Shown: piece by piece, positions 40,474-60,103 of the stretch | Layout of the letters: every line of letters begins with the position of its first letter | How positions within the stretch are numbered: the stretch's first letter is position 1 | Source of the DNA: Hyphomicrobiales bacterium | GTDB taxonomy: Bacteria > Pseudomonadota > Alphaproteobacteria > Rhizobiales > RI-29 | NCBI GenBank assembly: GCA_016125495.1 | Contig: WGLQ01000004.1 | Coordinates: 62,001-126,000 of the forward strand | Reading direction: 5' to 3' | Length of the DNA stretch: 64,000 nucleotides | Notes under the pieces: model-generated | What the model was told of the DNA's origin: nothing | Databases searched by the model: none | The model's input: the letters and a program-made list of their open reading frames with translations, nothing else | Made by a program: the position numbers and the translations under genes

Positions 40474-42999
40474 ATGAAGACCGAGGCACGCGTGGTGGTT
40501 GTCGGTGGCGGTGTGGTCGGCGTTGCGACGCTTCATCACCTCGCCCGCAAGGGCTGGAGCGACGTCGTGCTGATCGAGCGAAAGGAGCTGACCTCGGGCT
40601 CCACCTGGCATGCCGCCGGGCTGCTGCCGCTCTTCAACCTCAGCTACTCCGTCGGCCAGATTCACAAGTACTCGGTGCGCTTCTACCAGGAATTGCAGCG
40701 TGAGACCGGCATGAACGTCGGCTTCTCGCAGGTCAGCAACATCCGACTCGCCCGCACCCGCGACCGCCTCGACGAATACCACTATTACGCTGGCGTCGCC
40801 GAGACCATCGGCGTGCCGCTGAAGTTCCTGACGCCCGCTGAACTGAAGGAGGTCTGGCCACTCTGCGAGACCGATGGCATCCTCGGTGCGATCCAGCATC
40901 CGGGCGACGGCTACATCCAGCCGGCAGACCTCACCCAAGCGCTCGCCAAAGGCGCCCGTGACCGGGGCGCGACGATCTACCGCAACACCGTCGTCACCGG
41001 CATCGACCAGCGCGGTGACGGCAAGTGGGTGGTCACCACCGACAAGGGCGCGATCGTCTGCGAACACGTCGTCGCCGCGACCGGCAACTTCGCCCGTCGG
41101 ACCGGTGCCATGGTCGGCCTCGAGGTCCCGGTCATCCCCGTCGAGCACCAGTACATCGTCACCGAGCCGCATCCCGCGATCCTCGAACGCAAGCGCCAGG
41201 GGCTGCCCGAGATGGGCGTGCTGCGCGAAAGCGGTTCCTCCTGGTACATGCGAGAGGAGAACGGCGGCCTGTTGCTCGGGCCCTACGAGCACGGCGCCCC
41301 CTGCTGCTACGTCGACGGCCCCTCCGATCAGAGTGAGTACGAGCTGTTCCAGGAGGATCTCGACCGCCTCATGCCGCACATCGAGACAGCGGTCGCGCGC
41401 GTGCCGGCGTTCGGCGAGGTCGGCATCAAGAAGGTCTACAATGGCGCGATCGCCTACACGCCCGACGGCTCACCGATCATCGGCCCCGCGCCGGGCCTGA
41501 AGAACTTCTGGCTCAACGAAGGGCATTCCTTCGGCGTCACGGCCGCTGGTGGCGCCGGCTGGCAGCTCGCGGAGTGGATCGTCGACGGCGAGCCGACAAT
41601 CGACATGATGGGCGTCGACCCGCGCCGCTTCGGGCCCTACGCGACCGAAGGCTACCTCCGGCAAAAGAACGAGGAGGCCTACGCCAACGTCTTCACGATG
41701 CACTACCCCGACGAGGAGCGCGCCGCCGCCCGGCCCCTCAAGACGACGCCCTGCTATGAGCGTATGAAGGCGCTCGGCGCGGTCTTCGGCTCGGTCTACG
41801 GCTGGGAGCGGCCGAACTGGTTCGCCCCGGCCGGGTACGAGGTGCCCAAGGACCAGCTCGGCGTCGGTGCCGACGTCATCACCAGCCACAACCACGCCGC
41901 CCCCCTGGAGGATGGCCGCATCGTCGAGAAATGGTCGTTCCGCCGCTCCAACTATTTCGAGCACGTCGGCAACGAGGTGAAGGCCGTGAGCGCCGGCGTC
42001 GGCCTTCAGGACATGAGTGCCTTCGCCAAGTGCTGGATCTCCGGCCCCGGCGCCGAGGCCTGGCTGTCCTCGATCCTCGCCAACAAACTGCCAAAGAGCG
42101 TCGGGCGCATTGCACTCTGCCACTTGCTGACAAAGCATGGCGGCGTGCGCTCGGAGTTTACCGTCTACAAGCAGCCCACCGGCTTCTATCTCGTCTCGGC
42201 CGGCGCCTACGAGGCGCACGACCACGACGTTCTGCACAAGCTGCTGCCAACCGACGGCAGCGTGCGCATGACGTCGATGACCAGCCAGTGGGGTGTTCTG
42301 GTCATCGCGGGACCGCGCGCGCGCGACGTCCTTGCAAAGCTGACCCGGACCCCGCTCGACAACAAGAGCTTCCCCTGGCTGACCGGGCGACAGATTTCCC
42401 TCGGCGCCGCAACCGCCCATGCCCTGCGCGTCAACTTCGTCGGTGAACTCGGCTGGGAGTTCCACCATCCCATCGAGCAGCAGAACCACATCTTCGATCA
42501 ACTCATGGAAGCGGGCGCCGAATTCGGCATTCGGCCCTACGGCATCCGCGCCATGACGGCGATGGCGATCGAAAAGAGCTACCGCCTCATCCCGCGCGAA
42601 CTCTCGATCGAGTACTCGGCCTGGGAATCGGGCCTCGACCGTTTCGTCGCGCTCGACAAGGGCGACTTCCTCGGCCGCGAGGCGCTGGTTGCCCAGAAGG
42701 AAAAGGGTCTCGGCTGGAATTTCGTGACCATGGAGGTTCACGGCATCACCGATTGCGACGCCCGTGGCAACGAGGCGATCCACGATCCGTCCGGCAACCT
42801 CGTCGGGCGCGCGACGCACGGGGGCTATGGCTGGCGGTGCGGCAAATCCCTGGCGCTTGCCATGGTCAAACCCGAGCACGCCGCCATCGGCACGAAGCTC
42901 ACGATCCGCATCCTCGGCAAGGACCATGGGGCGGTGGTGATCCCCGAGAGCCCGTTCGATCCCGCGAATGCCCGCCTCAGGGCCGACGCCGGGGCATGA
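40474..42999 (+). CDS. Dimethylglycine/sarcosine dehydrogenase-family flavoprotein (DAO-GcvT fusion)
   Basis: An 841-residue enzyme. Residues 1-380 are a DAO-type FAD domain with VVVVGGGVVGVATLHHLARKG and the segment SGSTWHAAGLLP, whose His46 is at the covalent-FAD position of dimethylglycine and sarcosine dehydrogenases. A FAO-type linker follows, and about 430-830 is a GcvT folate-binding domain (YGIRAMTAMAIEKSYRLIPREL). Such enzymes oxidatively demethylate an N-methyl amine and hand the carbon to tetrahydrofolate. GGGGAGG precedes ATG 40474. Which substrate (dimethylglycine, sarcosine or another) cannot be read from sequence; the importer next door likely supplies it. Confidence 0.88.
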   Translation: MKTEARVVVVGGGVVGVATLHHLARKGWSDVVLIERKELTSGSTWHAAGLLPLFNLSYSVGQIHKYSVRFYQELQRETGMNVGFSQVSNIRLARTRDRLDEYHYYAGVAETIGVPLKFLTPAELKEVWPLCETDGILGAIQHPGDGYIQPADLTQALAKGARDRGATIYRNTVVTGIDQRGDGKWVVTTDKGAIVCEHVVAATGNFARRTGAMVGLEVPVIPVEHQYIVTEPHPAILERKRQGLPEMGVLRESGSSWYMREENGGLLLGPYEHGAPCCYVDGPSDQSEYELFQEDLDRLMPHIETAVARVPAFGEVGIKKVYNGAIAYTPDGSPIIGPAPGLKNFWLNEGHSFGVTAAGGAGWQLAEWIVDGEPTIDMMGVDPRRFGPYATEGYLRQKNEEAYANVFTMHYPDEERAAARPLKTTPCYERMKALGAVFGSVYGWERPNWFAPAGYEVPKDQLGVGADVITSHNHAAPLEDGRIVEKWSFRRSNYFEHVGNEVKAVSAGVGLQDMSAFAKCWISGPGAEAWLSSILANKLPKSVGRIALCHLLTKHGGVRSEFTVYKQPTGFYLVSAGAYEAHDHDVLHKLLPTDGSVRMTSMTSQWGVLVIAGPRARDVLAKLTRTPLDNKSFPWLTGRQISLGAATAHALRVNFVGELGWEFHHPIEQQNHIFDQLMEAGAEFGIRPYGIRAMTAMAIEKSYRLIPRELSIEYSAWESGLDRFVALDKGDFLGREALVAQKEKGLGWNFVTMEVHGITDCDARGNEAIHDPSGNLVGRATHGGYGWRCGKSLALAMVKPEHAAIGTKLTIRILGKDHGAVVIPESPFDPANARLRADAGA

Positions 43000-46281: not shown

Positions 46282-47532
46282 ATGTCCGACTATTCGTTCT
46301 GGAAGCTGCTTCGTCAGGGCATCGCGGGTCACCACGGGTGGCGCCCGGCCTGGCGCGATCCGTCTCCGAAGCCGTCCTATGACGCGGTCATCATCGGTGG
46401 CGGCGGTCATGGTTGCGCGACGGCCTATTACCTCGCCCGCCAGCACGGCATGACCAACATCGCGATCATCGAGAAGGGCTGGATCGGTGGCGGCAATGCG
46501 GGCCGCAACACCACGATCATTCGCTCGAACTACCTCTACGACGAGAGCGCGGCGATCTACGACCACGCCATGCAGCTCTGGAAGGGGCTCGGGCGTGAGT
46601 TGAACTACAACATCATGATGAGCCACCGCGGCGTGCTCAACCTCGCCCACGATGACGGCGAGATGCGCACCTTGAAGCGCCGCGTCGAGGCCAACCGCCT
46701 CAATGGCGTCGATGCGGAATGGCTCGACGCCAAGCAGGTCAAGGAGTTCTGCCCGATCATCAATATCTCGCCCGACATCCGCTTTCCGGTTCTCGGCGCG
46801 ACGCTCCAGCGCTCCGGCGGCGTCAACCGCCATGACGCGGTCGTCTGGGGCTATGCCCGCAAGGCCGACGCGATGGGCGTCGACATCATTCAGAACTGCG
46901 AGGTGACGGGCATCAAGGTGGAGGCGGGTCGGGTCGTCGGCCTGACCACCACGAAGGGCGACATCCGCACCCCCAAGATCGCCTCCGTCGCGGCCGGCCA
47001 CACCAGCGTCATCGCGCGCATGGTGGACCTGCGCCTGCCGATCGAGAGCCACCCCCTCCAGGCGCTCGTTTCCGAGCCGATCAAGCCGGTCAATCCGTGC
47101 GTCGTCATGTCGAACGCCGTGCACGCCTATTGCAGCCAGTCCGACAAGGGCGAACTGGTCATCGGCGCCGGCATCGACCATCAGATCTCCTATACCCAGC
47201 GTGGCGGCTTCGACCTCATCGAGGAGACCATTCAGGCGATCGTCGAGATGTTCCCGATTTTCTCCCGTCTGCGCCTCATGCGCCAGTGGGGCGGCATCGT
47301 CGACGTCTGCCCGGACGCCAGTCCGATCATTTCCAAGACGGACGTCGAAGGTTTCTACGTCAACGCCGGCTGGGGCACCGGCGGCTGGAAGGCGACGCCA
47401 GGCTCGGGTCACGCCTTCGCCGACCTCGTCGCCCGCAACGAGCCCAACGCCATCGCCGCCCCCTTCACCATCGACCGCTTCCGCTCCGGAAAGCTCGTCG
47501 CCGAGCACGGCGCGGCCGCCGTGGCGCACTGA
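46282..47532 (+). CDS. soxB: Sarcosine oxidase beta subunit
   Basis: A 416-residue flavoprotein subunit of heterotetrameric sarcosine oxidase, which turns sarcosine into glycine, peroxide and methylene-THF. The family N-terminus [26 protein letters not shown] motif [19 protein letters not shown] and [16 protein letters not shown] are present. His184 in [15 protein letters not shown] is at the position of the covalent FMN attachment. The C-terminal [16 protein letters not shown]-type region is intact (here [15 protein letters not shown]). First gene of the operon; the other subunits come only after two inserted genes. Confidence 0.95.
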
Positions 47533-47599: not shown

Positions 47600-48463
47600 A
47601 TGAAGCACCACTGGCACCTTGACGACAGCGCTGAAACGTCCGCGGGCCGCCTCGCCTGCGGTCGTGCCGGCGCGCCAAGTCGCCCGCCGCTGGTGCTGAC
47701 TCATGGTTGGCCCTGGTCCTCGTTCAGTTGGCACCGGGTCATACCGGCGCTCGCCGACCGGTTCCATGTCCACTGGTACGACATGCCGGGCTACGGTCGC
47801 TCCGAAATGCGGCCTGATCAGGCGACTGGCCTCAATGTCCAGGGCGCCGTCTTTGCCGAGATGCTCGGGCACTGGGGGCTCCGTGAGGGAGCAGCCCGCC
47901 CGCTCGTCTGGGCGCACGACTTCGGTGGCGCGACGACCTTACGCGCGCACCTGCTGCATGGTGCCGAATACGCGCGGCTCCTGTTGATGAACGTGGTCGC
48001 CATGCGACCCTGGGGCTCGAGCTTCTTCGATCATGTCCGCGCCCACATCGATGCGTTCCTCGGGGTGCCGCCGCACATCCACGCCGCCATCGTGCGGGCC
48101 TACATCGAGGGCGCCCTCGTCTGTGACCTGCAACGCGGCGACGTCGACGCACTCGTTGCCCCCTGGTTGACCGAGACCGGTCGCATCAGCTTCTGGCACC
48201 AGTTCGCAGAAGCCGACGAGCGATGGACGGGCGAGGTCGAGCCGCACTATGCGGACATCCGCTGCCCGGCGCACGTCCTCTGGGGGAAAGCCGACCCGTG
48301 GATTCCGCTCGCCCGCGGTAAGGCGCTGCATGGCGCCATCGGTGCCAAGGGCGCATCGGTCGGCTGGGCCGTGCTCGAGGGTGTCGGCCATTTGCCGCAG
48401 CTCGAGGCACCGGATGCCGTCGTCGCCGCCGCATTCGAGTTCTTCGCGGGGGAGACACGTTGA
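47600..48463 (+). CDS. Alpha/beta hydrolase with Asp nucleophile (haloacetate/haloalkane dehalogenase- or epoxide hydrolase-like)
   Basis: A 287-residue alpha/beta-fold hydrolase. HGWPW at 35-39 supplies the oxyanion hole; the nucleophile elbow WAHDFGGAT has Asp107 instead of Ser, as in dehalogenases and epoxide hydrolases; the catalytic histidine is His264 in GVGHLPQLE, and an acid lies in LWGKADPWIP. It sits 67 bases after soxB and its stop overlaps the LysE start (TGATG), so it is part of the sox operon. Substrate unknown. The start ATG 47600 lacks a strong ribosome site. Confidence 0.82.
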   Translation: MKHHWHLDDSAETSAGRLACGRAGAPSRPPLVLTHGWPWSSFSWHRVIPALADRFHVHWYDMPGYGRSEMRPDQATGLNVQGAVFAEMLGHWGLREGAARPLVWAHDFGGATTLRAHLLHGAEYARLLLMNVVAMRPWGSSFFDHVRAHIDAFLGVPPHIHAAIVRAYIEGALVCDLQRGDVDALVAPWLTETGRISFWHQFAEADERWTGEVEPHYADIRCPAHVLWGKADPWIPLARGKALHGAIGAKGASVGWAVLEGVGHLPQLEAPDAVVAAAFEFFAGETR

Positions 48464-49119
48464 TGCTTTCCCTCGAGACCTGGCTCGCCTTTGCCTCGGC
48501 CACGGCGCTCTTTGCTTACATGCCGGGTCCGTCGCTGCTCTATGCCGCGGCCCAGACCATGGCCCACGGTCGAAGCGGCGGGCTGCGGGCGGCGCTCGGT
48601 CTGCACCTCGGTTGCTATGTCCATGTCCTGGCTGTTGCGCTCGGCTTCAGTGCCCTGCTCGTGGCGGTTCCGACGGCCTACGCCGCCATGAAGCTGGTCG
48701 GCGCGGGCTACCTGGTCTGGCTCGGCCTGCAGCTCGTCCGGGATGCGATCGCCGGCGTCCGGCCCGGGCCCGCAGGCGATCCGGCTGCAACCGAGCATGC
48801 TTTGCCGCAGCATGCCCGCCGGCCTTTGCTCAGCTCGGCGATCGTCGAGATCCTCAACCCGAAGACGGCATTGTTCTATTATGCCTTCCTGCCGCAGTTC
48901 GTCGACCCTGCATCCGGTGTCGCCCCGTGGCTGCAATTCCTCGTCCTCGGCACGCTGGTCAATCTGGCGTTTTCCTCTGCGGACCTCATCGCCGTCGTCT
49001 TCGCCGACTGGGTCTCCGGCACGCTTGCACGCTCGGCTCGTGCGGCGGCATGGGTCCGAGGTCTCGGCGGCACGATCCTCGTCGCTCTCGGCCTGCGCCT
49101 CGCAATGGATAGAAACTGA
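48463..49119 (+). CDS. LysE/RhtB-family amino-acid exporter
   Basis: A 218-residue membrane protein with five to six helices. It has the LysE-family N-terminus (WLAFASATALFAYMPGPSLLYAAAQTMAHG, with the PGP motif) and IVEILNPKTALFYYAFLPQFV in the middle. Members export amino acids or related metabolites. Within the sarcosine oxidase operon it may relieve excess glycine, sarcosine or another product, which is inference. ATG 48463 overlaps the hydrolase stop. Confidence 0.87.
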   Translation: MLSLETWLAFASATALFAYMPGPSLLYAAAQTMAHGRSGGLRAALGLHLGCYVHVLAVALGFSALLVAVPTAYAAMKLVGAGYLVWLGLQLVRDAIAGVRPGPAGDPAATEHALPQHARRPLLSSAIVEILNPKTALFYYAFLPQFVDPASGVAPWLQFLVLGTLVNLAFSSADLIAVVFADWVSGTLARSARAAAWVRGLGGTILVALGLRLAMDRN

Positions 49120-49132
49120 AAGGCTCCCCAAG

Positions 49133-49525
49133 ATGCTGGTCATCGAATGCCCACACTGTGGCCCGCGCGAGCAGGAGGAATTCTCCTACGGCGGCGAGGC
49201 ACACATCGCCCGTCCGACGAACTCCGCCGACCTCAGCGACGCCGAGTGGGCCGAGTACGTCTTCATGCGTTCGAATACGAAGGGCGTTTTCGCCGAGCGT
49301 TGGATGCACGCCGCCGGCTGCCGCAAATGGTTCAACGTGATACGCAACACCGCGACCGACCGCATCCTCGCGGTCTATGCCCAGGGTGCGCCGCGCCCCG
49401 TGGTCGACCTCGCGGGGGAGGCTTTGCGGACCCCGAGCGGAGAGCCGTTCGTCGGCTCAGGTAACGACGCCACGAAAGTTCTCTCGAGCGCCGAGAGCAT
49501 GGCTGGAAAGGCACGCTCGTCATGA
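49133..49525 (+). CDS. soxD: Sarcosine oxidase delta subunit
   Basis: A 130-residue zinc subunit. The zinc ligands Cys6, Cys9 (ECPHCGPRE), His59 and Cys63 (MHAAGCRKWFNV) fall at the positions seen in characterised delta subunits. The first 95 residues match the family; the last 35 (from about VVDLAGEALRTPSGE) are an extension rich in small residues. The stop overlaps the soxA start (ATGA). The frame is short and overlaps longer spurious frames, but the motifs make it certain. Confidence 0.93.
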   Translation: MLVIECPHCGPREQEEFSYGGEAHIARPTNSADLSDAEWAEYVFMRSNTKGVFAERWMHAAGCRKWFNVIRNTATDRILAVYAQGAPRPVVDLAGEALRTPSGEPFVGSGNDATKVLSSAESMAGKARSS

Positions 49526-52500
49526 CGAAGACTTCGCTGCGCAACTCGACCGGTGGGCTGGTCGATCGCTCGCACCCGGTCAGCTTCCGCTTCAACGGTC
49601 GCACCTACCGGGGCTTTTCCGGCGATACCCTCGCCTCGGCCCTGATCGCCAACGGCGTGCACATGGTCGGGCGCTCGTTCAAGTATCACCGTCCGCGAGG
49701 CATCCTGGCGGCAGGCTCCGAGGATCCTGCCGCGCTCGTCCAGGTCGGCCGTCCGGATCGGGCTGCCACCGAGCCCAACACGCGCGCCACCGAACTCGAG
49801 ATCCACGAGGGCCTCGAGGCGTTTTCGCAGAACGCCTGGCCATCGCTCGGCTTCGACGTCGGCGCTGTCAACGACCTGCTCGGCCGGTTTCTTCCGTCGG
49901 GCTTCTACTACAAGACCTTCATGGGTCCGCCGTTCGGCTGGATGTTCTTCGAGCCGTTCATTCGCCGGTCCGCCGGTCTCGGGCTCAGCCCCACGTTGCC
50001 GGACCCGGACCGCTACGAGCACACCAACCGCCACTGCGACGTCCTCGTGGTGGGAGGTGGCCCGGCCGGCCTCATGGCCGCGCTCAGCGCCGGTCGCGCA
50101 GGGGCCCGTGTCATCCTCGCCGAGGAGAGCGCCCGCCTCGGCGGTCGCCTGCTCTCGAGCGACCCCAAGGCCAGCCGCATCGGCGACTTCGCCCCGGCCA
50201 AGTGGGTCGCCGAGGTCGAGGCGGAGTTGCGCGCGCTGCCGGAGGTGAAAATCCTGACGCGGACGTGTGCGTTCGGCTACTACGGGGAGAATTTCATCGG
50301 CCTGGCGGAGAACGTCCAGGATCACCTGCCGCCCTCCCTGCGTGATGCCAAATTGCCCCGCCACCGATTGTGGCGGATTCGCGCGGGCCGCGTGGTCCTC
50401 GCCACCGGCGCCATCGAACGCCCGTTGGTTTTCCACCAGAACGACCGGCCCGGCGTCATGCTGGCGGGGGCGGTGCGCACTTATCTGCACCGCTATGGCG
50501 TCAAGGCGGGCACGCGCGCGGTCGTCTTTGCCAACAACTCGGACGCCTGGCAGACCGCCTTCGACCTCGTCTCCCACGGTGTCGAAGTGCGCGCCATCGT
50601 CGACACCCGCGCCGCCCCCGAGGGCGAACTGGTCCAGCGTGCCGCGACCCTCGACATTCCGGTCCACGCCGGCTCGACGATCGTTGCGACGGAAGGGCGA
50701 CGCCGCATTTCCTGCGCCATGGTGCGGCGCATGGACGGGGATGGAAAATTGTTGGGCGAGGCCGACCGGCTCGAGTGCGACCTTCTGGCGATCTCCGGCG
50801 GCTGGTCGCCGAACGTTGCATTGTTCTCGCAGTCGCGTGGAAAACTGCGCTATGACGAGGCGATCGCCGCCTTCCGGCCCGCCGTGTCCTGGCAGAAGGA
50901 GCGCTCCGTCGGCGGCGCTGATGGCGAATTCGATCTTGCCGCCGCGCTCTCGGCCGGTGCCGAGGCCGGGGCTGAAGCCGCCAAGGCGACCGGATTTGCA
51001 GGCGAGGCCGCCATGGTGCCGGCCATCTCCCGGCCAGCCGCGCATGTGCCCTACGGCGTCGAACCGGCTTGGGATCTCCCGAGCGAACGCTCCGCGGCCG
51101 CCACCCGCGCCTTCGTCGACACCCAGAACGACGTGACCGCCAAGGATCTCCACCTTGCCGTCCGCGAGGGATATCGTTCCGTCGAGCACGCCAAGCGATA
51201 CACGACCACCGGCATGGGCACGGACCAGGGCAAAGTCGTCGGCGTCAACGCCTTCGGCATCCTGGCCGGCGCGTTGGGCAAGGCGATCCCCGACGTCGGG
51301 GTCACGACCTATCGACAGCCGTTCAAACCGGTCTCCTTCGGCGCGGTCGCCGGCCAGCACGCCCGCCAGCTTTTCCATCCGCGCCGCACCACGCCGATGC
51401 ACGACTGGCACGTCGAGGCCGGCGCAACCTTCGAGGTCGTCGGCGACTGGCTGCGCGCGCGCACCTATCCCCGAGCCGGTGAGACGTTCCACGACGCGGT
51501 CCAGCGCGAGAGCCTCGCCGCCCGCCGCCAGACCGGCATCCTCGATGCCTCGACGCTCGGCAAGATCGACATCCGCGGCCGCGGCGCAGCCGAGTTCCTC
51601 GATCGCGTCTACACCAACTCCTGGAAGAAGCTGAAGGTCGGCACCTGCCGCTACGGCCTGATGCTGAACGAGGATGGCATGGTCTTCGACGATGGCGTCA
51701 CCGCCCGCCTCGCCGAGGATCACTTCCACATGACCACGACTACGGGCGGCGCGGCCCGCGTCCTCAATTGGCTGGAGGAATATCACCAGACCGAGTGGTC
51801 GGACCTCGAGGTCCACATGACGACTGTAACCGAGCAGTGGGCGGTTGCCTCGCTCTGCGGGCCGGAATGCCACCGACTGGTGGGCGATCTGGTCGACGAC
51901 CTGGACGTCTCTCCGGAGAACATGCCGTTCATGAGCGTTGCGACAGGAAGCATCGACGGCATTCCCGTCCGCGTCTTCCGTATTTCCTTCACCGGCGAAC
52001 TCTCCTACGAGATCAATATTCCGGCTTCCTACGGTCTCTGGCTCTGGCGACGCCTGATGGATGCCGGACGCATCTACGGGCTGACGCCCTACGGCACCGA
52101 GGCGATGCACCTGCTGCGCGCGGAGAAGGGTTTCATCATCGTCGGCCAGGATACCGACGGCACGGTGACGCCGCACGACCTCAGGATGGATTGGATCGTC
52201 AAGAAGGAAGGCGATTTCATCGGCCGGCGCTCGCTCTCGCGTTCGGACACCGCGCGCCGTGACCGGCCCCAGCTCGTCGGCCTCCTGACGAGCGATCCGG
52301 CATTCGTCATCGAGGAGGGCTCCCAGATCATCGCCACGGCGACGGAGCCGGAGCCGCGCGTGCCGATGCTCGGCTATGTGACGTCGAGTTACTTTTCCCC
52401 GAACCTGGGCCGTTCGATCGCTCTCGCACTGGTCAAGGGTGGCGGCGCAAGAATGGGCGAGACCGTCTACATCTCGCGTCGTGGCGCCTTGCCCGTGCCG

Positions 52501-52551
52501 GCGACGATCTCCGGAACGGATTTTCTTGCAGCCGAAGGGGCCAGGAAATGA
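49522..52551 (+). CDS. soxA: Sarcosine oxidase alpha subunit
   Basis: A 1009-residue subunit, the usual length. Residues about 12-105 are a ferredoxin-like Fer2_4 domain without cluster cysteines (VSFRFNGRTYRGFSGDTLASALIANG). A dinucleotide-binding oxidoreductase domain follows from about 170 (CDVLVVGGGPAGLMAAL), which holds NAD. The C-terminal third (about 610-1000) is a GcvT-type folate domain (GTCRYGLMLNEDGMVFDDGVTARL, GTEAMHLLRAEKGFIIVGQDTDGTV) that receives the methyl carbon as methylene-THF. It overlaps soxD before and soxG after by four bases each. Confidence 0.96.
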   Translation: MTKTSLRNSTGGLVDRSHPVSFRFNGRTYRGFSGDTLASALIANGVHMVGRSFKYHRPRGILAAGSEDPAALVQVGRPDRAATEPNTRATELEIHEGLEAFSQNAWPSLGFDVGAVNDLLGRFLPSGFYYKTFMGPPFGWMFFEPFIRRSAGLGLSPTLPDPDRYEHTNRHCDVLVVGGGPAGLMAALSAGRAGARVILAEESARLGGRLLSSDPKASRIGDFAPAKWVAEVEAELRALPEVKILTRTCAFGYYGENFIGLAENVQDHLPPSLRDAKLPRHRLWRIRAGRVVLATGAIERPLVFHQNDRPGVMLAGAVRTYLHRYGVKAGTRAVVFANNSDAWQTAFDLVSHGVEVRAIVDTRAAPEGELVQRAATLDIPVHAGSTIVATEGRRRISCAMVRRMDGDGKLLGEADRLECDLLAISGGWSPNVALFSQSRGKLRYDEAIAAFRPAVSWQKERSVGGADGEFDLAAALSAGAEAGAEAAKATGFAGEAAMVPAISRPAAHVPYGVEPAWDLPSERSAAATRAFVDTQNDVTAKDLHLAVREGYRSVEHAKRYTTTGMGTDQGKVVGVNAFGILAGALGKAIPDVGVTTYRQPFKPVSFGAVAGQHARQLFHPRRTTPMHDWHVEAGATFEVVGDWLRARTYPRAGETFHDAVQRESLAARRQTGILDASTLGKIDIRGRGAAEFLDRVYTNSWKKLKVGTCRYGLMLNEDGMVFDDGVTARLAEDHFHMTTTTGGAARVLNWLEEYHQTEWSDLEVHMTTVTEQWAVASLCGPECHRLVGDLVDDLDVSPENMPFMSVATGSIDGIPVRVFRISFTGELSYEINIPASYGLWLWRRLMDAGRIYGLTPYGTEAMHLLRAEKGFIIVGQDTDGTVTPHDLRMDWIVKKEGDFIGRRSLSRSDTARRDRPQLVGLLTSDPAFVIEEGSQIIATATEPEPRVPMLGYVTSSYFSPNLGRSIALALVKGGGARMGETVYISRRGALPVPATISGTDFLAAEGARK

Positions 52552-53183
52552 TCGATAGTCGTCGCCAGTCCCCACTCTCCCATCGCAAGCCCCTTGCCGC
52601 GCGCAGCGGCGAGGCCGCTCTTTGCGAACTGCCGTTTCGAGGCTTCCTGCAGCTCCGCGCGTCACCCGAGGTCGCAGCGCCTGCTGTCACGACGGCTCTC
52701 GGCCTCGTCTTGCCGCAAGCCGTGCGTCAGACCGCCCGCGCCGGCGGGGTCACAGCCATTTGGCTTTCTCCCGACGAATGGGTGCTGACGACCGATCCCG
52801 GCGGGGTGACGGAGGCCCAGGGTGCGCTCTCTCGCGCGCTCGCCGGCCGCCATGCGCAGGTGGTCGACGTCACGGACTATTATACGACGATCGAGATCGC
52901 GGGCACGCGGGCCCGCGCGCTGCTGGCCAAGCTGGTCGCTTACGATCTCCACCCGCGTGCTTTCCATCCCGGCGAGGCCGTCGCCACCCGTATCGCCAAG
53001 GTCTCCGGCTGGATTTACTGCCCGGTGGATGGCGGTGGGGCGGGCAATGTCCTCCATGTCATGGTGCGCCGCTCGCTTGCCGACTATGTCTGGTGCCTCC
53101 TGGCGGACGCTGGCCGCGAATGGGGCCTGCCGGCCGAGGAGCCGCGCGGCGCGGTCAAGCTCCACCTGCCTCACTTCGACTAG
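52548..53183 (+). CDS. soxG: Sarcosine oxidase gamma subunit
   Basis: A 211-residue subunit with a GcvT-like fold, the least conserved of the four. Typical segments are AICELPFRGFLQLR-like (here ALCELPFRGFLQLR), WLSPDEWVL, VDVTDYYTTIEIAG and ARALLAKLVAYDLHPRAFHPG. It overlaps the soxA stop by four bases and ends the operon. No purU or glyA gene follows, unlike many sox operons. Confidence 0.92.
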   Translation: MIDSRRQSPLSHRKPLAARSGEAALCELPFRGFLQLRASPEVAAPAVTTALGLVLPQAVRQTARAGGVTAIWLSPDEWVLTTDPGGVTEAQGALSRALAGRHAQVVDVTDYYTTIEIAGTRARALLAKLVAYDLHPRAFHPGEAVATRIAKVSGWIYCPVDGGGAGNVLHVMVRRSLADYVWCLLADAGREWGLPAEEPRGAVKLHLPHFD

Positions 53184-53307: not shown

Positions 53308-54573
53308 TCAGGTGCGTGCCGGCGGGCTCGTCCAGCGCCGCGCCGGCGCATGGAATGGCCGGTCGACGACGCGCGCCGGTTCCATCAGCTTTTTCCACTC
53401 CAGTTCGTACTGCACGTAGATCTCGACGAAGAGCGGTTCGCGTCGGTTGAGGCCGTGCGGCCGCCTCAACGAGGCGAGGGCGATGTTGCGTTTGGTCGCC
53501 GGCGACCAGGTCGCCGCGGTGACATGGCCGACCTCGACCTTTCGCTCGGTATAGACGAGCGACTGGTGGGCAGGCTTGTTGCCGCCGATGTCGAGACCGA
53601 CGAGGCACCACTTCGAGGACTCGCTTTCCTTTTCCTCCAGCAGTGCGCGCCGTCCGTTGAAGTGTCCCTTCCCGAAGTCGACCATCCAGCCGAGCCCGAT
53701 CTCGAACGGCGATCGCGGTCGGCCCGAACGCACGGCGTGCTCGGCGGTGACGAAATCCTGGTTCGCCACGATGAAGCCGGCCTCGATCCGAGCGATGTTG
53801 AGGGCGGCGTTCCCGAACGGCATGATGCCGTGGGCCGCTCCCGCCGCCATCAGCGTGTCGTATAGCGCGAGCGCGCGCGCCGGCTCGGTCCAGACTTCAT
53901 AGCCGAGGTCGCCGGTGAAGCCGCTGCGCGAGATGGTCACCTCGCCGGCATCCGTGAGCGAAAAGCGGCCATGTTCGAACGGCTTGAGCGCGCTCGCGTT
54001 ACCGGCCCCGGCCGCCTCGAGGACCGCATAGGAGGTCGGTCCCTGCAGCGACAGCGCGCAGATCGCGTCGGAAATATCGTCCACGACGACGTCGAATCCC
54101 TCGGCGCCCGCCAGCAGCCAGGGCAGGTGCCGCTCCTGGCAGTGCAGCAGGAAGCTCGCCTGCGAGAGCCGCATCAGCGTGCCGTCGTCCATGACTTTTC
54201 CGTCGTCGTCGCACCAGGCGGTATAGTGCATGCGCCCGGGCGCCAGCCGCGCCACGTTGCGCAGCGTCAGACGGTCGAGGAACGCCTCGGCATCGTCGCC
54301 CTCGATCCGGTAGGTCACCATCGGCGACAGATCGAACAGTCCGGCCGAGTTGCGGATCGCGGTATACTCGAGTTCGAGGTCTCGAAAGACGTTCACCACG
54401 GTATAGCCCGCCCAGGTGGCCCAGTCGTTCAGCACGGCGAGTTCGCTCGTGCGAGCGTGGAACGGAGTCCGGCGCCGGGGCGTGCGGAATTCGAGTTGCG
54501 CCGGGGTGTGGGGCCCGGGCCCGCGCCCTCCGGTCTTTGCGGCCTTTGCAGCGTCCGACGGCCTCGCGTTCAT
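53308..54573 (-). CDS. GcvT-family (aminomethyltransferase-like, folate-binding) protein
   Basis: A 421-residue stand-alone GcvT-fold protein, longer than glycine-cleavage T protein (about 365) through an N-terminal 35-residue tail. The folate pocket aspartates are seen in GKVMDDGTLMRL, and GFTGDLGYEVW and ALNIARIEAGF correspond to the T-protein landmarks. The family moves one-carbon groups to tetrahydrofolate. Its start overlaps the stop of the upstream flavoprotein (ATGA), so it likely takes the carbon released by that enzyme. It is not a glycine-cleavage gene: no gcvH or gcvP is near. DmdA-like demethylation of a sulfonium compound is another possibility. Confidence 0.83.
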   Translation of the reverse strand: MNARPSDAAKAAKTGGRGPGPHTPAQLEFRTPRRRTPFHARTSELAVLNDWATWAGYTVVNVFRDLELEYTAIRNSAGLFDLSPMVTYRIEGDDAEAFLDRLTLRNVARLAPGRMHYTAWCDDDGKVMDDGTLMRLSQASFLLHCQERHLPWLLAGAEGFDVVVDDISDAICALSLQGPTSYAVLEAAGAGNASALKPFEHGRFSLTDAGEVTISRSGFTGDLGYEVWTEPARALALYDTLMAAGAAHGIMPFGNAALNIARIEAGFIVANQDFVTAEHAVRSGRPRSPFEIGLGWMVDFGKGHFNGRRALLEEKESESSKWCLVGLDIGGNKPAHQSLVYTERKVEVGHVTAATWSPATKRNIALASLRRPHGLNRREPLFVEIYVQYELEWKKLMEPARVVDRPFHAPARRWTSPPART

Positions 54574-56171
54574 GCCCGCTTCTCCTTGGCGAGGATTCGG
54601 CGCGCGGCGTTGAGCCCGGCGACACCGGTCACGCCGCCGCCCGGATGACAGCCGGCACCGCAGAGATAAAGTCCGGGGATGGGTGTGTCGTACTGCGCCG
54701 CGCCGGGGACCGGGCGTAGCATCAGCATCTGGTCGGGCGCCAGCTCCCCGTGGTGCCAGTGGCCGCCCGGCATGCGGTAACGCCGCTCGATGTCGACCGG
54801 CGTCAGCAGCTCGCGGTGAGCGATCTGGTTCTGGATCTGCGGTGCATACCGCGCGATCGTCGCGACGATCAGGTCCGCGAATTTCTCGCGTGCGCCGTCC
54901 CATCCGCCCGCGAGATCATAGGGAGCAAATTGTACGAGCGCGGACAGCACGTGCTTGCCGGGCGGCGCGAGCGTCGGATCGACGATGGAGGGGATGGTCA
55001 TCTCGAGGAGCGGCTCGGGCGAATACTGCCCATATTTTGCCGGATTGAAGGCCCGCTCCACCGCCTCGACGCTCGGTGCGACGACCAGCCTGCCATCGTG
55101 GTTGAGCCGGTCGAGGCCGTTGAAGCTCGGCAATCCGTCGAGCACCAGATGGAGCTTGGCGACGTTGCCCCGCGCGCGGATGTTGCGAACGCGCCGGGTG
55201 AAGCCGATGTCGAGGTGCTCGACCCCGACCAGATCGAGGAAGGTGGTGCGCGGGTCGATGGCCGAGACGACGAGGTCCGCGGCGATTTCGTCCCCTGTCG
55301 CCAGTTCGACGCCGACCGCCCGGTCGCCGCGCACGATGATGCGCTCGACCGGAGCGGATACGACGGTGCGCACGCCAGCCCGCTCACCGGCCTCCGCGAT
55401 CGCCTTGACGACGCCGCCCATGCCGCCCTGCGGGATCGCCCGTGCGCCACGCTCGCCGAGCACCTCGCCCGCCATCCGATACAGCAGACCGAGCACCGAG
55501 CCGGGTGAGCGCGGCCCGAGATGGCTGCCGAGCACGGCGTCGAAGGCAACCGCGCCGCGTAGCCGCTCGTCGGTCAATTCCTCGTCGAGGAGGTCCGCGA
55601 CGTTCATCAGCGCGATGCGCAGGAACTCGCGCATGTCCGCGCGCCCGAGCCGGCGGATCCTGAGCCCGAGACGCGCAAGCTTGAGGTTCTCGGCGAGGTT
55701 CGAGGAAGCAAGGCGCGGCGGCGGCTCCGCAAGCATCGGCGCCAACGCACCGGCAAAGCGCGAGAGGCGCTCGTTGAGTCGCGCCCAGGCCGCCTGCTCA
55801 CCGGCCGCCAGGTCCTTGCCGGCGAGTTCGCCCCGGTCGCGGCTTATGACGAGGTTCCGGCCCCGGGCATCGAGTGCCACGGTGTCGATATCGGGCGCCG
55901 CATACTGTAGCCCGCTCTGATCGAGGTCGAGTTCGGAAATCACCTGCGGGTGCAGGAGGTGAAGCACGTGCGCGAGCCCCGGAACACGCACGCCCGGCAT
56001 GATCTCGACCGTACGCGCGCCGCCGCCGACCTCGCCATCCGCCTCCAGCACCGTCACCGAGAGGCCCGCCTTGGCCAGCATGGCGGCGGCCACGAGCCCG
56101 TTGTGGCCGCCGCCGATGACGACGGCGGTGCGCGCCACTGGCGTTTTGTTCCCTTTGTTAGATGACGGCAT
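54570..56171 (-). CDS. PYROXD2/CrtI-like FAD oxidoreductase (first paralogue)
   Basis: A 533-residue flavoprotein of the phytoene-desaturase/PYROXD2 type. FAD motif VVIGGGHNGLVAAAMLAKAG near the start, GGMGGVVKAIAEAGERAGV in the middle and the C-terminal LYLCGAGCHPGGGVTGVAGLNAARRIL. It is clearly related to the next gene, with the same landmarks in the same order. ATG 56171 overlaps the upstream gene by 14 bases; a GTG at 56138 is an alternative start giving MARTAVVIGGG. Carotenoid genes are absent, so an amine or other small substrate is more likely than phytoene. Function unknown. Confidence 0.8.
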   Translation of the reverse strand: MPSSNKGNKTPVARTAVVIGGGHNGLVAAAMLAKAGLSVTVLEADGEVGGGARTVEIMPGVRVPGLAHVLHLLHPQVISELDLDQSGLQYAAPDIDTVALDARGRNLVISRDRGELAGKDLAAGEQAAWARLNERLSRFAGALAPMLAEPPPRLASSNLAENLKLARLGLRIRRLGRADMREFLRIALMNVADLLDEELTDERLRGAVAFDAVLGSHLGPRSPGSVLGLLYRMAGEVLGERGARAIPQGGMGGVVKAIAEAGERAGVRTVVSAPVERIIVRGDRAVGVELATGDEIAADLVVSAIDPRTTFLDLVGVEHLDIGFTRRVRNIRARGNVAKLHLVLDGLPSFNGLDRLNHDGRLVVAPSVEAVERAFNPAKYGQYSPEPLLEMTIPSIVDPTLAPPGKHVLSALVQFAPYDLAGGWDGAREKFADLIVATIARYAPQIQNQIAHRELLTPVDIERRYRMPGGHWHHGELAPDQMLMLRPVPGAAQYDTPIPGLYLCGAGCHPGGGVTGVAGLNAARRILAKEKRA

Positions 56172-57783
56172 AGGCTTCGCTGATGTCCTTGATGTCACCG
56201 GGTCGCTTGAGGTCCCTCAGGATCTCGACGGCGGCATTGCGTCCCGGCGCCCCCATGACGCCGCCACCCGGATGCGCCGACGAGCCGCAGAGATAAAGTC
56301 CGCGAACCGGCGAGCGGTACTGAGCGTAACCCGGCACGGGCCGGTTGAAGAGGAGTTGGTCGAATGTCAGCTCGCCCTGGAAGATGTTGCCCTCGGTGAG
56401 CCCGACCTCTTCTTCGAGTTCGCGTGGTGTGCGCACCTCCTTGTGCACGATGAGATCACGAAAGCCGGGGCTGTAGTCCGCGATCTGCGAGATCACCGTT
56501 TCCCCGAACGCGTCGCGGTCGGCGTCCGTCCACTCGCCCGTCGCGAGCCGTGGCGGGCAGTACTGCACGAAGCAGCTCATGAAATGGCGCCCCGGCGCCG
56601 CCATGGTTGGATCGACCGTGGTCGGGATCATCATGTCGAGGAAGGGGTCGGCCGACCAGCGCCCTTCCTTCCAGTCGTCGTAGCCACGTTCCATGCGCTC
56701 CATCGTGTCGGTGAAGTGCATGTCGCCGCGCACGCACGGCGATCCTTCCGGCAGCGCCGGGAACCGGGGCATGCCCGAGAGCGCGATGTTGACCTTGCCC
56801 GAAGAGCCGCGGATGCGGAAGTTTCGCACCTTGCGCACGAACTCGTCCGGCAGATTGTATTCCGCGATGAGCTTGAGGAAGGTGCGCTTGACGTCCGCGT
56901 TCGAGGCAACGATGCGCCCGTGCACTTCCTCGCCGGTCTCCAGCATGACGCCGATCGAGCGCCCGCCGCGGACCATGATCTCGGCGACCCCGGCGCCGGT
57001 CCGGATCTCCCCACCATAGCTCGCGAGCGCTGCGGCGAGCGCCTTGCTGATGCCCCCCATCCCGCCGCGCGAATAGCCCCATGCCCCGGAGCTTCCGTCG
57101 ACCTCGCCCATGTAGTGGTGGAGGAGGACGTATGCGGTGCCGGGCGAGTAGGGCCCGAGTGCCGTGCCGATGATCCCCGAGACGGCGAGCTTGGCCTTGA
57201 TCACCGGCGTTTCGAAGTATTCGTCGAGGAATTCCGCGATGCTCATGGTCCAGAAGCGGACCATGTCGCCCATCTCGCGCTCGGTGAGGTCGTTCAGCCG
57301 CTTGCCGAGCCAGAGCAGCTCCTGCACGTCGCGCGGTTTGAGGGATGTGGGATCGGGCGGCGTGCGCAGCAGCAGCGGGCGGATGAAGCGGCACTGGCGC
57401 AGCACGTCGACTGAATAGCGGTCGTAGGCCTCCGCATCGCGGGGCGAAAAGCGGGCGAACTCGCGGCGCTGCGCCTCGTGATCGCGGTAGCTGCCGAGGA
57501 AGTCGCCGTCCTCCGTGAACGTCGCGCCGCCATCGAAGGGGATGATCTGCAGGCCGTGGCGGGGCAGATCGAGGTCGCGCATGATCTCCGGTCGCAGTAG
57601 CGAGCAGACGTAGGAGCAGTTGGAGTAGAGCCAACCCTCTTGAATCTCGCGGCTGACGGCGGCCCCGCCGATGTAGTCGTTCTTCTCGACGACGACGACA
57701 TCGAGCCCGGCCCGCGCCAGATAGCAGGCGGTGACGAGCCCGTTGTGTCCCGCCCCGACGATCACCGCGTCATAGGTTTTCAT
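56158..57783 (-). CDS. PYROXD2/CrtI-like FAD oxidoreductase (second paralogue)
   Basis: A 541-residue flavoprotein with FAD motif YDAVIVGAGHNGLVTACYLAR at the N-terminus, SRGGMGGISKALAAALASYGGEIRTGAGV, TTVDPTMAAPGRHFMSCFVQY and the C-terminal LYLCGSSAHPGGGVMGAPGRNAAVEIL. It is paralogous to the gene that follows and overlaps it by 14 bases, suggesting a heterodimer or two consecutive oxidations. ATG 57783 is the obvious family start. First gene of the three-gene unit, divergent from a SAM methyltransferase gene across 188 bases with a perfect palindrome. Confidence 0.83.
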   Translation of the reverse strand: MKTYDAVIVGAGHNGLVTACYLARAGLDVVVVEKNDYIGGAAVSREIQEGWLYSNCSYVCSLLRPEIMRDLDLPRHGLQIIPFDGGATFTEDGDFLGSYRDHEAQRREFARFSPRDAEAYDRYSVDVLRQCRFIRPLLLRTPPDPTSLKPRDVQELLWLGKRLNDLTEREMGDMVRFWTMSIAEFLDEYFETPVIKAKLAVSGIIGTALGPYSPGTAYVLLHHYMGEVDGSSGAWGYSRGGMGGISKALAAALASYGGEIRTGAGVAEIMVRGGRSIGVMLETGEEVHGRIVASNADVKRTFLKLIAEYNLPDEFVRKVRNFRIRGSSGKVNIALSGMPRFPALPEGSPCVRGDMHFTDTMERMERGYDDWKEGRWSADPFLDMMIPTTVDPTMAAPGRHFMSCFVQYCPPRLATGEWTDADRDAFGETVISQIADYSPGFRDLIVHKEVRTPRELEEEVGLTEGNIFQGELTFDQLLFNRPVPGYAQYRSPVRGLYLCGSSAHPGGGVMGAPGRNAAVEILRDLKRPGDIKDISEAYAVI

Positions 57784-57971: not shown

Positions 57972-58763
57972 ATGACTGCCACGGGCGACGCCGAGTACCC
58001 GGACGAGCTGATCACCTTCCTGGAGACGCTCTGGGGCGCGGGCTACCTGTCGCCTGGCGGGCCGGCCGAAGTGGACCGGGTTCTGGCGGGAATGTCGCTG
58101 GCGGGATGCGACGTGCTGGACCTCGGCTGTGGTTCTGGCGGCATCTCGCTGCATCTGGCGGAGCGCCATGGCGCGCGCTCGGTCACCGGCATCGACGTGG
58201 AGGGGCCGGTGCTCGCCAAGGCGCGCGAGCGGGTGGACGCCTCTGGCCTCGCCGACCGCGTTCGTTTCGCGCAGGTGGCCCCCGGCCCGCTGCCGTTTCC
58301 CGATCGCACGTTCGACATCGTCTTTTCCAAGGATGCCATCGTCCACATCCCCGACAAGCACGCGATCATGGCCGAGATTCACCGTGTCCTGAAACCGGGC
58401 GGACGGTTCGCCGCGAGCGATTGGCTGATCTCCCACGACGGCGAGCCGACGCCGCCCATGGCCGACTACATCCGTTCCGAAGGTCTCAGTTTCGGAATGG
58501 CCTCGCCAACGCGCTACCGGGAGGCGATGGTGGCCGCGGGCTTCGCCGAGGTCGAGCTGGTCAACCGCAACCCCTGGTATCGCGAGGTCGCTCGCGGTGA
58601 ATTCGAGCAGCTGTCCGGCGCACTTTACGAGCGTGCCGTCGCCGCCGCTGGCCGAGCGCTCGTCGATCACAACATCGGCACGTGGAAGCGCATGCTGACC
58701 GTCCTCGAGAGCGGAGAGCATTGCCCGCACCACCTGCGTGCCCGCCGTCCGCTGGGTGGGTGA
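57972..58763 (+). CDS. Class I SAM-dependent methyltransferase
   Basis: A 263-residue methyltransferase. SAM motif I is VLDLGCGSGGISLHLAERHG (residues about 44-63), motif II includes TGIDVEG, and VFSKDAIVHIPDKHAIMAEIHRVLKPGGRF is motif III-IV. The opening (FLETLWGAGYLSPGGPAEVDRVL) resembles phosphoethanolamine and small-amine N-methyltransferases. An N-methylating enzyme beside presumed demethylating flavoproteins is odd and may mean it acts on the same compound class. Substrate not provable from sequence. Confidence 0.83.
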   Translation: MTATGDAEYPDELITFLETLWGAGYLSPGGPAEVDRVLAGMSLAGCDVLDLGCGSGGISLHLAERHGARSVTGIDVEGPVLAKARERVDASGLADRVRFAQVAPGPLPFPDRTFDIVFSKDAIVHIPDKHAIMAEIHRVLKPGGRFAASDWLISHDGEPTPPMADYIRSEGLSFGMASPTRYREAMVAAGFAEVELVNRNPWYREVARGEFEQLSGALYERAVAAAGRALVDHNIGTWKRMLTVLESGEHCPHHLRARRPLGG

Positions 58764-58993: not shown

Positions 58994-60103
58994 ATGGCTG
59001 CAACTGCTTTGCAAGGTACCCGGCGTGTGGTGCGCACGATCCGGTCGTTGGTCGGTGCGGCGGCGGTGGTCGGGCTCGCCTTCGCGTTCGCCCCGACCGC
59101 GTCCGCTGAGAGCCCCAACCTGACGCTCTTCGAGTGGGCAGGCTACGACGACGTCGAGTTCCACAAGGCCTATGCCGAGAAATACAACGGCTCGCCGCAG
59201 TATTCGTTCTTCGCGGATGAGGAGGAGGCATTCAACAAGCTGCGTGCCGGCTTCAAGGCGGACCTGATGCACCCCTGCATCCAGAGCATTCCGAAGTGGC
59301 GCGACGCTGGCCTACTCAAGCCGATCGACGTCAGCCGGCTGCCCAAGTGGGCTGACATCTACGAGCGCTTCCGCAACCTGCCGCACGTGATGACGAGCGA
59401 CGGCAAGGCCTGGTTCGTCCCCTTCGACTGGGGCAACTCCGGTATGACCTACATCACGGGCAAACTGACCGAGGAGCAGGCGTCGACCCTCCAGACATTC
59501 ATCGACCCGGCGATGGCGGGCAAGGTCTCGATCCCGGACAACGTCGACGATGCCTATGCGCTGGCCTTCCTCGCAACCGGCATCAAAGACTGGACCAATG
59601 TGACGGATGCCCAGTTCCAGGCCGCCAGCGATTGGCTGCGCAAGGCGCACCCGAACGTGCGTTTCTACTGGGGCGATCCCAATTCGCTCAACCAGGGGAT
59701 GGCAAACGGCGAGGTCGATCTCGCCTGGGCCTGGAACGAGACCCCGACCAACCTTCAGGAGGCCGGCCACGACGCCGTCATGAACAAGCAGGTCAAGGAG
59801 GGCGCCTCGACCTGGATCTGCGGCTTCTCCATGCTGACATCCGGTGAAGGCAGCGAGGATCAGGCTTACGACTACATCAACGCGTTCCTCGAGGACCAGA
59901 CGGCCAAATATCTCGTCTCCGAGTGGGGTTATGCCGCCTCGACGACGACGGGCATGGCTCAGTTCACCGAGGAGGAACTGACCGACGCGGGCTATGCCGA
60001 CATCGCGGGCTTCTTCGAGGCCACGCTCTTCCAGTCGGCCATGGACCCGCAGATCCGCGAGCGCATGATCGCCGAGTTCGCCAAGATCAAGGCGGGCTTC
60101 TGA
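58994..60103 (+). CDS. Orphan Pot-type (family 1) extracellular substrate-binding protein
   Basis: A 369-residue periplasmic binding protein. The signal peptide is long with a hydrophobic core (SLVGAAAVVGLAFAFAPTASA). The mature start is NLTLFEWAGYDDVEFHKAYAEKY, with FADEEEAFNKLRAGFKADLMHPC and VPFDWGNSGMTYITGKL typical of PotD-like proteins. No permease or ATPase gene follows, so it must dock to the PotABC-type importer at 35-40 kb or another set. ATG 58994 has AGGAG and GGAGG upstream. Its neighbours suggest an amine ligand. Confidence 0.87.
   Translation: MAATALQGTRRVVRTIRSLVGAAAVVGLAFAFAPTASAESPNLTLFEWAGYDDVEFHKAYAEKYNGSPQYSFFADEEEAFNKLRAGFKADLMHPCIQSIPKWRDAGLLKPIDVSRLPKWADIYERFRNLPHVMTSDGKAWFVPFDWGNSGMTYITGKLTEEQASTLQTFIDPAMAGKVSIPDNVDDAYALAFLATGIKDWTNVTDAQFQAASDWLRKAHPNVRFYWGDPNSLNQGMANGEVDLAWAWNETPTNLQEAGHDAVMNKQVKEGASTWICGFSMLTSGEGSEDQAYDYINAFLEDQTAKYLVSEWGYAASTTTGMAQFTEEELTDAGYADIAGFFEATLFQSAMDPQIRERMIAEFAKIKAGF

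Follow-up and report, generated by a model that had tools for sequence, protein, structure and literature searches.

The heterotetrameric sarcosine oxidase/N-methylglutamate dehydrogenase (soxBDAG) and the dimethylglycine dehydrogenase-type fusions share the combination of flavin-dependent amine oxidation with a GcvT domain, and in trimethylamine N-oxide (TMAO) demethylase, Tdm, it is presumably the GcvT half that captures the released one-carbon (C1) unit on tetrahydrofolate (THF). Here we analyzed a stretch of 64,000 nucleotides from a Hyphomicrobiales bacterium (assembly GCA_016125495.1, contig WGLQ01000004.1, positions 62,001 to 126,000), from now on the window, in which three overlapping genes encode two flavoproteins, FlavA and FlavB, and a stand-alone GcvT-fold protein, GcvT-like (Table 1). 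Judging from the sequences, this trio is probably an undescribed enzyme that moves amine methyl groups onto folate, since it travels with genes for the uptake and breakdown of methylated amines. We give its reading as a folate-coupled oxidative N-demethylase a probability of about 0.6.

The coordinates of the three minus-strand genes and their overlaps (14 nt between FlavA and FlavB, 4 nt between FlavB and GcvT-like) agree with those of the original prediction, which was made from the letters of the window; as start codons were assigned mechanically, the overlap lengths are approximate. That the two flavoproteins are paralogs, and that GcvT-like is longer than a glycine-cleavage T protein, was also borne out: FlavA and FlavB are 38% identical across 525 amino acids (aa) and both score over the PF01593 cut-off, and GcvT-like has 421 aa against the 380 aa of the true GcvT of the same genome.

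Conservation of the three genes across genomes, on which the prediction had staked itself, was evaluated in the best 80 of 589 FlavA relatives, a set that is rich in Mesorhizobium and includes two metagenome-assembled genomes (MAGs) labelled Gammaproteobacteria. Ten of these related loci, with less than 3 kb beyond FlavA, were left out of the count of gene order; in the other 70, with at least 3 kb there, the trio was found in order and on one strand without exception, and 51 of them show a 14-nt overlap of FlavA with FlavB again (mechanical starts). The trio was also kept in 18 of 20 further alphaproteobacterial regions, chosen because either a strong FlavA or two flavoprotein genes in tandem were present, where the identity of FlavA is as low as 35%. 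Among 385 alphaproteobacterial genomes, 26 of the 27 best GcvT-like matches have FlavA and/or FlavB as same-contig neighbours; the one exception, in genome G227, is on another contig. When the placement was checked at 30 places (the 27 best, two fused-length matches and G242), FlavA and/or FlavB stood beside 27 of them. In a sample of the phylum (349 genomes, E 1e-45) the sole match outside the class was a 780-aa frame, of fused length. From the searches of class and phylum, the trio looks mainly alphaproteobacterial at this sampling; of the loci from MAGs labelled Gammaproteobacteria, L093 carries the trio and L039 ends after FlavA. On the other hand, no GcvT match at E 1e-20 was obtained within the retrieved sequence of any of 16 non-trio flavoprotein loci (L126-L141, including two with short flanks). 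The trio is a real and widely conserved unit, beyond chance. The open literature searched (titles and the beginnings of abstracts) yielded no earlier description of it. A report on SAR11 (PMC3160333) describes aminomethyltransferases of unknown substrate, one of them adjoining a monomeric sarcosine oxidase gene, an arrangement unlike that of the trio.

The same unit can be recognized in the trees. The flavoprotein tree has 79 rows, 30 FlavA, 29 FlavB and 20 non-trio relatives, with no characterized desaturase among them, and the FlavA and FlavB labels were assigned by gene position. In it the FlavA rows lie on one side of a branch (support 100/100) and the FlavB rows likewise (100/100), and the non-trio flavoproteins form a weaker grouping of their own (91/53); deep placements in the tree are unsure because of four long branches, of which two join. 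In the GcvT tree, with 39 domains, the 27 trio proteins lie on one side of a branch (100/98), the other 12 rows being Tdm, DmdA-type, SoxA, flavin-fusion, canonical GcvT and two unnamed proteins. Given these separate groups for FlavA, FlavB and GcvT-like, the trio is, as far as the trees can tell, an old unit and no recent neighbourhood. FlavA is 69-80% identical in 26 relatives, and its mean column identity is 82% (27 rows) vs 51% for FlavB (28 rows, largely from the same loci). Both alignments share two invariant elements, the FAD motif rich in Gly and a His-Pro-Gly-Gly stretch in the C-terminal part.

By its Pfam matches, GcvT-like is assigned to the GcvT/DmdA/Tdm superfamily (PF01571, 191.4 bits for a cut-off of 25.6; PF08669, 38.5 for 25.9). 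Its best NCBIfam match is Tdm (NF053776, 242.6 bits, below the cut-off of 1100), with the alignment confined to profile positions 385-758 of 763, that is, to the GcvT half, and its best matches in the Protein Data Bank (PDB) are also Tdm structures (9q5a/9q59, E about 4e-48). It stays under the cut-offs of the glycine cleavage T models (TIGR00528, 160.8 vs 235.85; NF001567, 208.1 vs 300), of DmdA (NF009133, 122.4 vs 410 bits) and of soxA (TIGR01372, 149 vs 1164 bits). A glycine-cleavage role of GcvT-like is ruled out by these scores and by the presence of a true gcvT elsewhere in the genome, adjoining gcvH on contig C14. The T-protein signature is mostly kept, with two key residues retained and one altered: D130 aligns with D96 and E226 with E195 of the Thermotoga maritima T protein, both invariant in 19 rows. 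We take D96, Y188 and E195 of that protein to be its key residues. The kept Asp and Glu suggest that GcvT-like likely binds folate and accepts a C1 unit.

FlavA and FlavB are placed in the flavin amine oxidoreductase superfamily by PF01593, whose gathering score of 19.8 bits is exceeded by both (FlavB 88.4, FlavA 51.1) with matches covering nearly the whole of each protein. Both also score above the cut-off of the DAO family PF01266 (27.9 bits; FlavA 49.9, FlavB 28.7), where the best stretch of FlavA takes in residues 5-45 only. Both remain under the cut-offs of CrtI (TIGR02734, crtI_fam, 238.1 bits; FlavB 134.9, FlavA 119.2) and of their best NCBIfam match, CrtO (NF045689, 1000 bits; FlavB 241.9, FlavA 271.7). 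Against soxB (TIGR01373, cut-off 529.45), FlavA scores 26.8 and FlavB is absent from the matches listed.

The genes that accompany the trio were counted in the 59 related loci of at least 20 kb, using one to three query proteins for each family (matches at E 1e-15 that cover half of the query). A BetI-type repressor was present in 57 of these loci, the Pot transporter genes in most of them (ATPase in 55, binding protein in 54, permeases in 52 and 50), and class III aminotransferases of the PRK07036 type in 48 and of the GntE/GSAM type in 6. In addition, an S-adenosylmethionine (SAM) methyltransferase was found in 38, a monoamine-oxidase-like protein (named by eye; it has no NCBIfam match) in 32 and a GbcA/CntA-like Rieske oxygenase in 27. 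The representatives of the aminotransferase (PRK07036) and of one BetI-type repressor (PRK00767) reach their NCBIfam cut-offs. Of ten neighbour families that were searched, none matched a carotenoid family, and three matched nothing. Much the same gene set is carried by annotated plasmids of Shinella, Rhizobium, Parasedimentitalea and Fuscovulum, where the trio has general annotations only (NAD(P)/FAD-dependent oxidoreductase twice, and aminomethyltransferase family protein). The nearest solved structure of the Shinella Rieske protein is carnitine monooxygenase, and those of the Fuscovulum binding protein are polyamine and putrescine binders. The repressor, the Pot binding protein, the aminotransferase and the Rieske oxygenase point to a pathway for the breakdown of methylated or quaternary amines.

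Some observations concern single loci. The Fuscovulum cluster (L124:23032-25483) also contains, by annotation, a dimethylsulfoniopropionate (DMSP) lyase family gene and an amidohydrolase, and a DMSP lyase-like gene was matched in 5 of the 59 long loci. Among deeper relatives, in L109, L110 and L114-L118, a glnE-like gene of about 1000 codons adjoins the trio, with an EF-hand-like gene on the other side of the trio in six of the seven, L116 being the exception (both by eye); in L114 and L118 there is, in addition, a gene resembling glutamine synthetase/gamma-glutamylputrescine synthetase, under the cut-off. As to FlavA relatives outside the trio, a single one in L132 (5343-8920) directly adjoins GbcA-like Rieske and BetI-like genes, below NCBIfam cut-offs, which hints at a possible connection of the flavoprotein family as such with quaternary amines. 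Another, in L127 (828-7366), is preceded about 3 kb upstream by choline ABC transporter genes whose scores reach their cut-offs.

The surroundings of the trio in the window are different. The original prediction stated that no glycine-cleavage gene is near, which is the case; it overlooked a heterotetrameric sarcosine-oxidase-like operon that converges on the trio and ends 124 nt away (Table 1). Between its soxB and soxD frames (47606-49119) lie alpha/beta-hydrolase-like and LysE-like genes, named by eye. The 80 related loci, 59 of which reach at least 20 kb, gave no match to soxA, soxB or soxG within their flanks, and this neighbour is therefore local to the window genome. Farther off in the window there are polyamine-type ABC transporter genes, a glutamine-synthetase-type gene, and a flavin and GcvT fusion whose N-terminal half matches ThiO/SoxB models and whose C-terminal half matches SoxA/GcvT models, all under cut-off. 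On the side of the trio away from the operon, the divergent methyltransferase has plant phospho(methyl)ethanolamine N-methyltransferases as its nearest solved structures, and the binding protein gives PotD/PotF-type NCBIfam matches far under cut-off. By eye, an Asp of PotF seems to be replaced in binding proteins of the window type. The window genome as a whole (4.05 Mb) has 22 GcvT-domain matches, 21 of them above cut-off; its own Tdm (L157), DmdA-type protein (L161) and true GcvT (L158) each score above the NCBIfam cut-off. It also has two squalene/phytoene-synthase family genes elsewhere. Upstream of the window, a 631-aa frame (C4:43889-45784; L155:890-2785, minus strand) joins a BetI-type repressor domain (PF13977) with Rieske domains (PF00355/PF00848); it is stop-free between the domains and is either a natural fusion of regulator and enzyme or an assembly error.

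Table 1. Features of the window, the trio first (positions are those of the window)
Feature	Positions	Strand	Length and matches
FlavA, flavoprotein paralogous to FlavB, first trio gene	56158-57783	minus	541 aa; PF01593
FlavB, amine-oxidase/CrtI-superfamily flavoprotein, second trio gene	54570-56171	minus	533 aa; PF01593
GcvT-like, stand-alone GcvT-fold protein, third trio gene	53308-54573	minus	421 aa; PF01571 and PF08669
Flavin and GcvT fusion	40474-42999	plus	841 aa; GCV_T match
soxB-like subunit, convergent operon	46282-47532	plus	TIGR01373 669.1 bits vs 529.45
soxD-like reading frame	49133-49525	plus	position and by eye only
soxA-like subunit with own GcvT domain	49522-52551	plus	TIGR01372 1388.3 vs 1164; PF01571 230.3 bits
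soxG-like subunit	52548-53183	plus	PF04268 79.3 vs 21; TIGR01375 94 vs 143.95, below
SAM-dependent methyltransferase, divergent from the trio	57972-58763	plus	Pfam methyltransferase families; PDB 5wp5, E 2.6e-32
Polyamine-type ABC solute-binding protein	58994-60103	plus	PDB polyamine binders, best E 9e-18

From the observed gene order, family membership, conserved residues and neighbours we infer a reaction, its coupling to THF, a complex of the three proteins, a division of labour between FlavA and FlavB and an order of the pathway, as follows. FlavA and/or FlavB, with FAD, would act on a tertiary or secondary amine and oxidize an N-methyl group of it, yielding an iminium or formaldehyde equivalent. 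The GcvT-like subunit, to which THF is bound, would capture this product as 5,10-methylene-THF. In many relatives the cationic amine would first be imported by the polyamine-type ABC transporter, and a GbcA/CntA-like Rieske oxygenase would strip the first methyl from a quaternary ammonium compound. The trio would then take the next one or two methyls onto THF, and the class III aminotransferase would finally deaminate the freed primary amine, with the whole pathway under the BetI-type repressor. The folate-coupled oxidation of a methylated amine, as originally predicted, is favoured in part: the conservation of the trio, the CrtI and CrtO cut-offs missed by the flavoproteins, the amine-type neighbours and the mostly kept T-protein signature speak for it, and the reaction stays a proposal.

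Several results weigh against this proposal. No curated cut-off of a demethylase is reached by any protein of the trio, and at the position of T. maritima Y188 GcvT-like has a Phe (F219, invariant in 19 rows), as SoxA also does. Two of the 20 selected regions, L119 and L120, hold tandem flavoprotein pairs without GcvT, and in deeper relatives the trio stands among different genes. The Rieske matches and most of the BetI-type ones are under NCBIfam cut-offs, and a SAM methyltransferase is unaccounted for within a presumed demethylation cluster. Within the window itself there is no BetI-type, Rieske or close aminotransferase match (best aminotransferase 32%); on the same contig, upstream, an aminotransferase with 54% identity is found at a distance of about 78 kb and a Rieske protein with 36% at about 70 kb, and the best-scoring of the eight Rieske matches in the genome lies on a different contig. 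Furthermore, in the predicted models (pLDDT 88.1 for FlavB and a moderate 72.9 for FlavA) the nearest solved fold is 4rep, a gamma-carotenoid desaturase (TM 0.75 for FlavB and 0.72 for FlavA; Z 32.8 for FlavB). The solved folds after it include amine and putrescine oxidases; for FlavB they are amine oxidases, protoporphyrinogen oxidases and renalases (Z about 20-25), and the latter two match the folds about as well as amine oxidases do. With 4rep in first place and such a mixed list behind it, the modelled fold says nothing decisive on the function of FlavB.

Other explanations have to be considered in the light of the same data. GcvT-like might itself demethylate, passing the methyl straight to THF as DmdA does with S-methyl and LigM/DesA with O-methyl groups, while the flavoproteins oxidize the remaining skeleton. 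Stand-alone GcvT-fold demethylases do exist, and weak matches to DmdA (122.4 bits), LigM (58.6) and DesA (54.4) were seen, but these are far under the respective cut-offs (410, 580 and 800), and the GcvT tree separates the trio proteins from the DmdA-type rows of the window genome; we regard this as unlikely. That GcvT-like is paired with two flavoproteins of the amine-oxidase superfamily in 70 of 70 loci fits oxidative capture better than direct transfer. The nearest fold and the best NCBIfam match (CrtO), together with the two squalene/phytoene-synthase family genes of the genome, could suggest that FlavA and FlavB are lipid or isoprenoid desaturases or isomerases, with GcvT-like as a chaperone or folate-dependent accessory. 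Nevertheless, the CrtO and crtI_fam cut-offs are missed widely, and the usual neighbours serve amine uptake and breakdown, with no carotenoid match among the families searched, which makes this reading improbable.

Equally improbable is that the trio is an accessory of ordinary sarcosine or dimethylglycine breakdown by the adjacent soxBDAG, as could be thought from the convergent operon and the flavin-GcvT fusion of the window. As a general role of the trio this is ruled out, because soxA, soxB and soxG gave no match in the 80 loci within their flanks, and the trio is usually accompanied by another transporter, repressor and aminotransferase. A further explanation, compatible with the folate-coupled N-demethylase, is that one flavoprotein is catalytic and the other a structural or electron-transfer subunit. 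The much stronger conservation of FlavA than of FlavB would agree with it, but the FAD motif and the His-Pro-Gly-Gly stretch are invariant in both, and we consider it possible, with the odds somewhat against it. Regarding the substrate, no bacterial homarine operon was found for comparison in the literature searched, and homarine, considered as a candidate, is neither supported nor excluded.

The folate-coupled N-demethylase would also bear on a human protein. The label "PYROXD2-like" for FlavA and FlavB, and their homology to human PYROXD2, are presumptions of ours, and PYROXD2 is not known to have a GcvT partner. In three articles (PMC9730628, PMC7878905, PMC13352909), variants of PYROXD2 are tied to N6-methyllysine and N6,N6-dimethyllysine. 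PMC9730628 gives PYROXD2-dimethyllysine as the strongest association of a plasma study, reported earlier in urine, plasma and cerebrospinal fluid, and PMC8777681 calls the precise function of PYROXD2 unclear and mentions an association with trimethylamine. Two qualifications count against the link: the rare-variant signal for urinary N6,N6-dimethyllysine was gone after conditioning on common variants (PMC7878905), and the association with missingness of N2-acetyl,N6,N6-dimethyllysine lost significance in a diabetes sensitivity analysis (PMC13352909). Taken as they are, the methyl-lysine and trimethylamine associations fit an N-methylamine oxidase. We tentatively propose, as something rather less probable than the N-demethylase reading itself, that the trio represents a class of THF-coupled N-demethylase that was assembled separately, with a PYROXD2-type flavin fold in place of the DAO fold, that its substrate is an N-methylated amine resembling a polyamine, an amino acid or lysine, and that the PYROXD2 family, including the human orphan, are N-methylamine oxidases. 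If true, plant-associated and marine alphaproteobacteria would have another route that couples the flavin oxidation of N-methyl groups to folate, a breakdown route would be opened for a methylated amine, and there would be a tractable bacterial handle on the orphan enzyme PYROXD2 and its metabolite associations.

When the trio is compared with the known systems, Tdm is the closest in its GcvT half, the best NCBIfam and PDB match of GcvT-like. Unlike the trio, Tdm is a single chain (model length 763) and differs in its N-terminal half; moreover, the window genome has a separate Tdm copy of its own (1158.2 bits, over the cut-off), and the GcvT tree places the trio proteins away from its Tdm rows. 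In soxBDAG and the dimethylglycine dehydrogenase-type enzymes the flavin part has the DAO fold and the GcvT domain is fused, whereas in the trio the GcvT-like protein is free and the flavin part consists of two subunits of the amine-oxidase/CrtI superfamily. With GcvT the likeness lies in the fold and most signature residues, and the difference in the cut-offs, which the true GcvT of the genome reaches and GcvT-like does not. FlavA and FlavB have their overall fold in common with CrtI/CrtO and the monoamine-oxidase superfamily, but they fall short of the carotenoid cut-offs and the trio has amine-breakdown neighbours. On this comparison of sequences, the trio is best read as a folate-coupled N-demethylase that differs from the known ones in its flavin fold.

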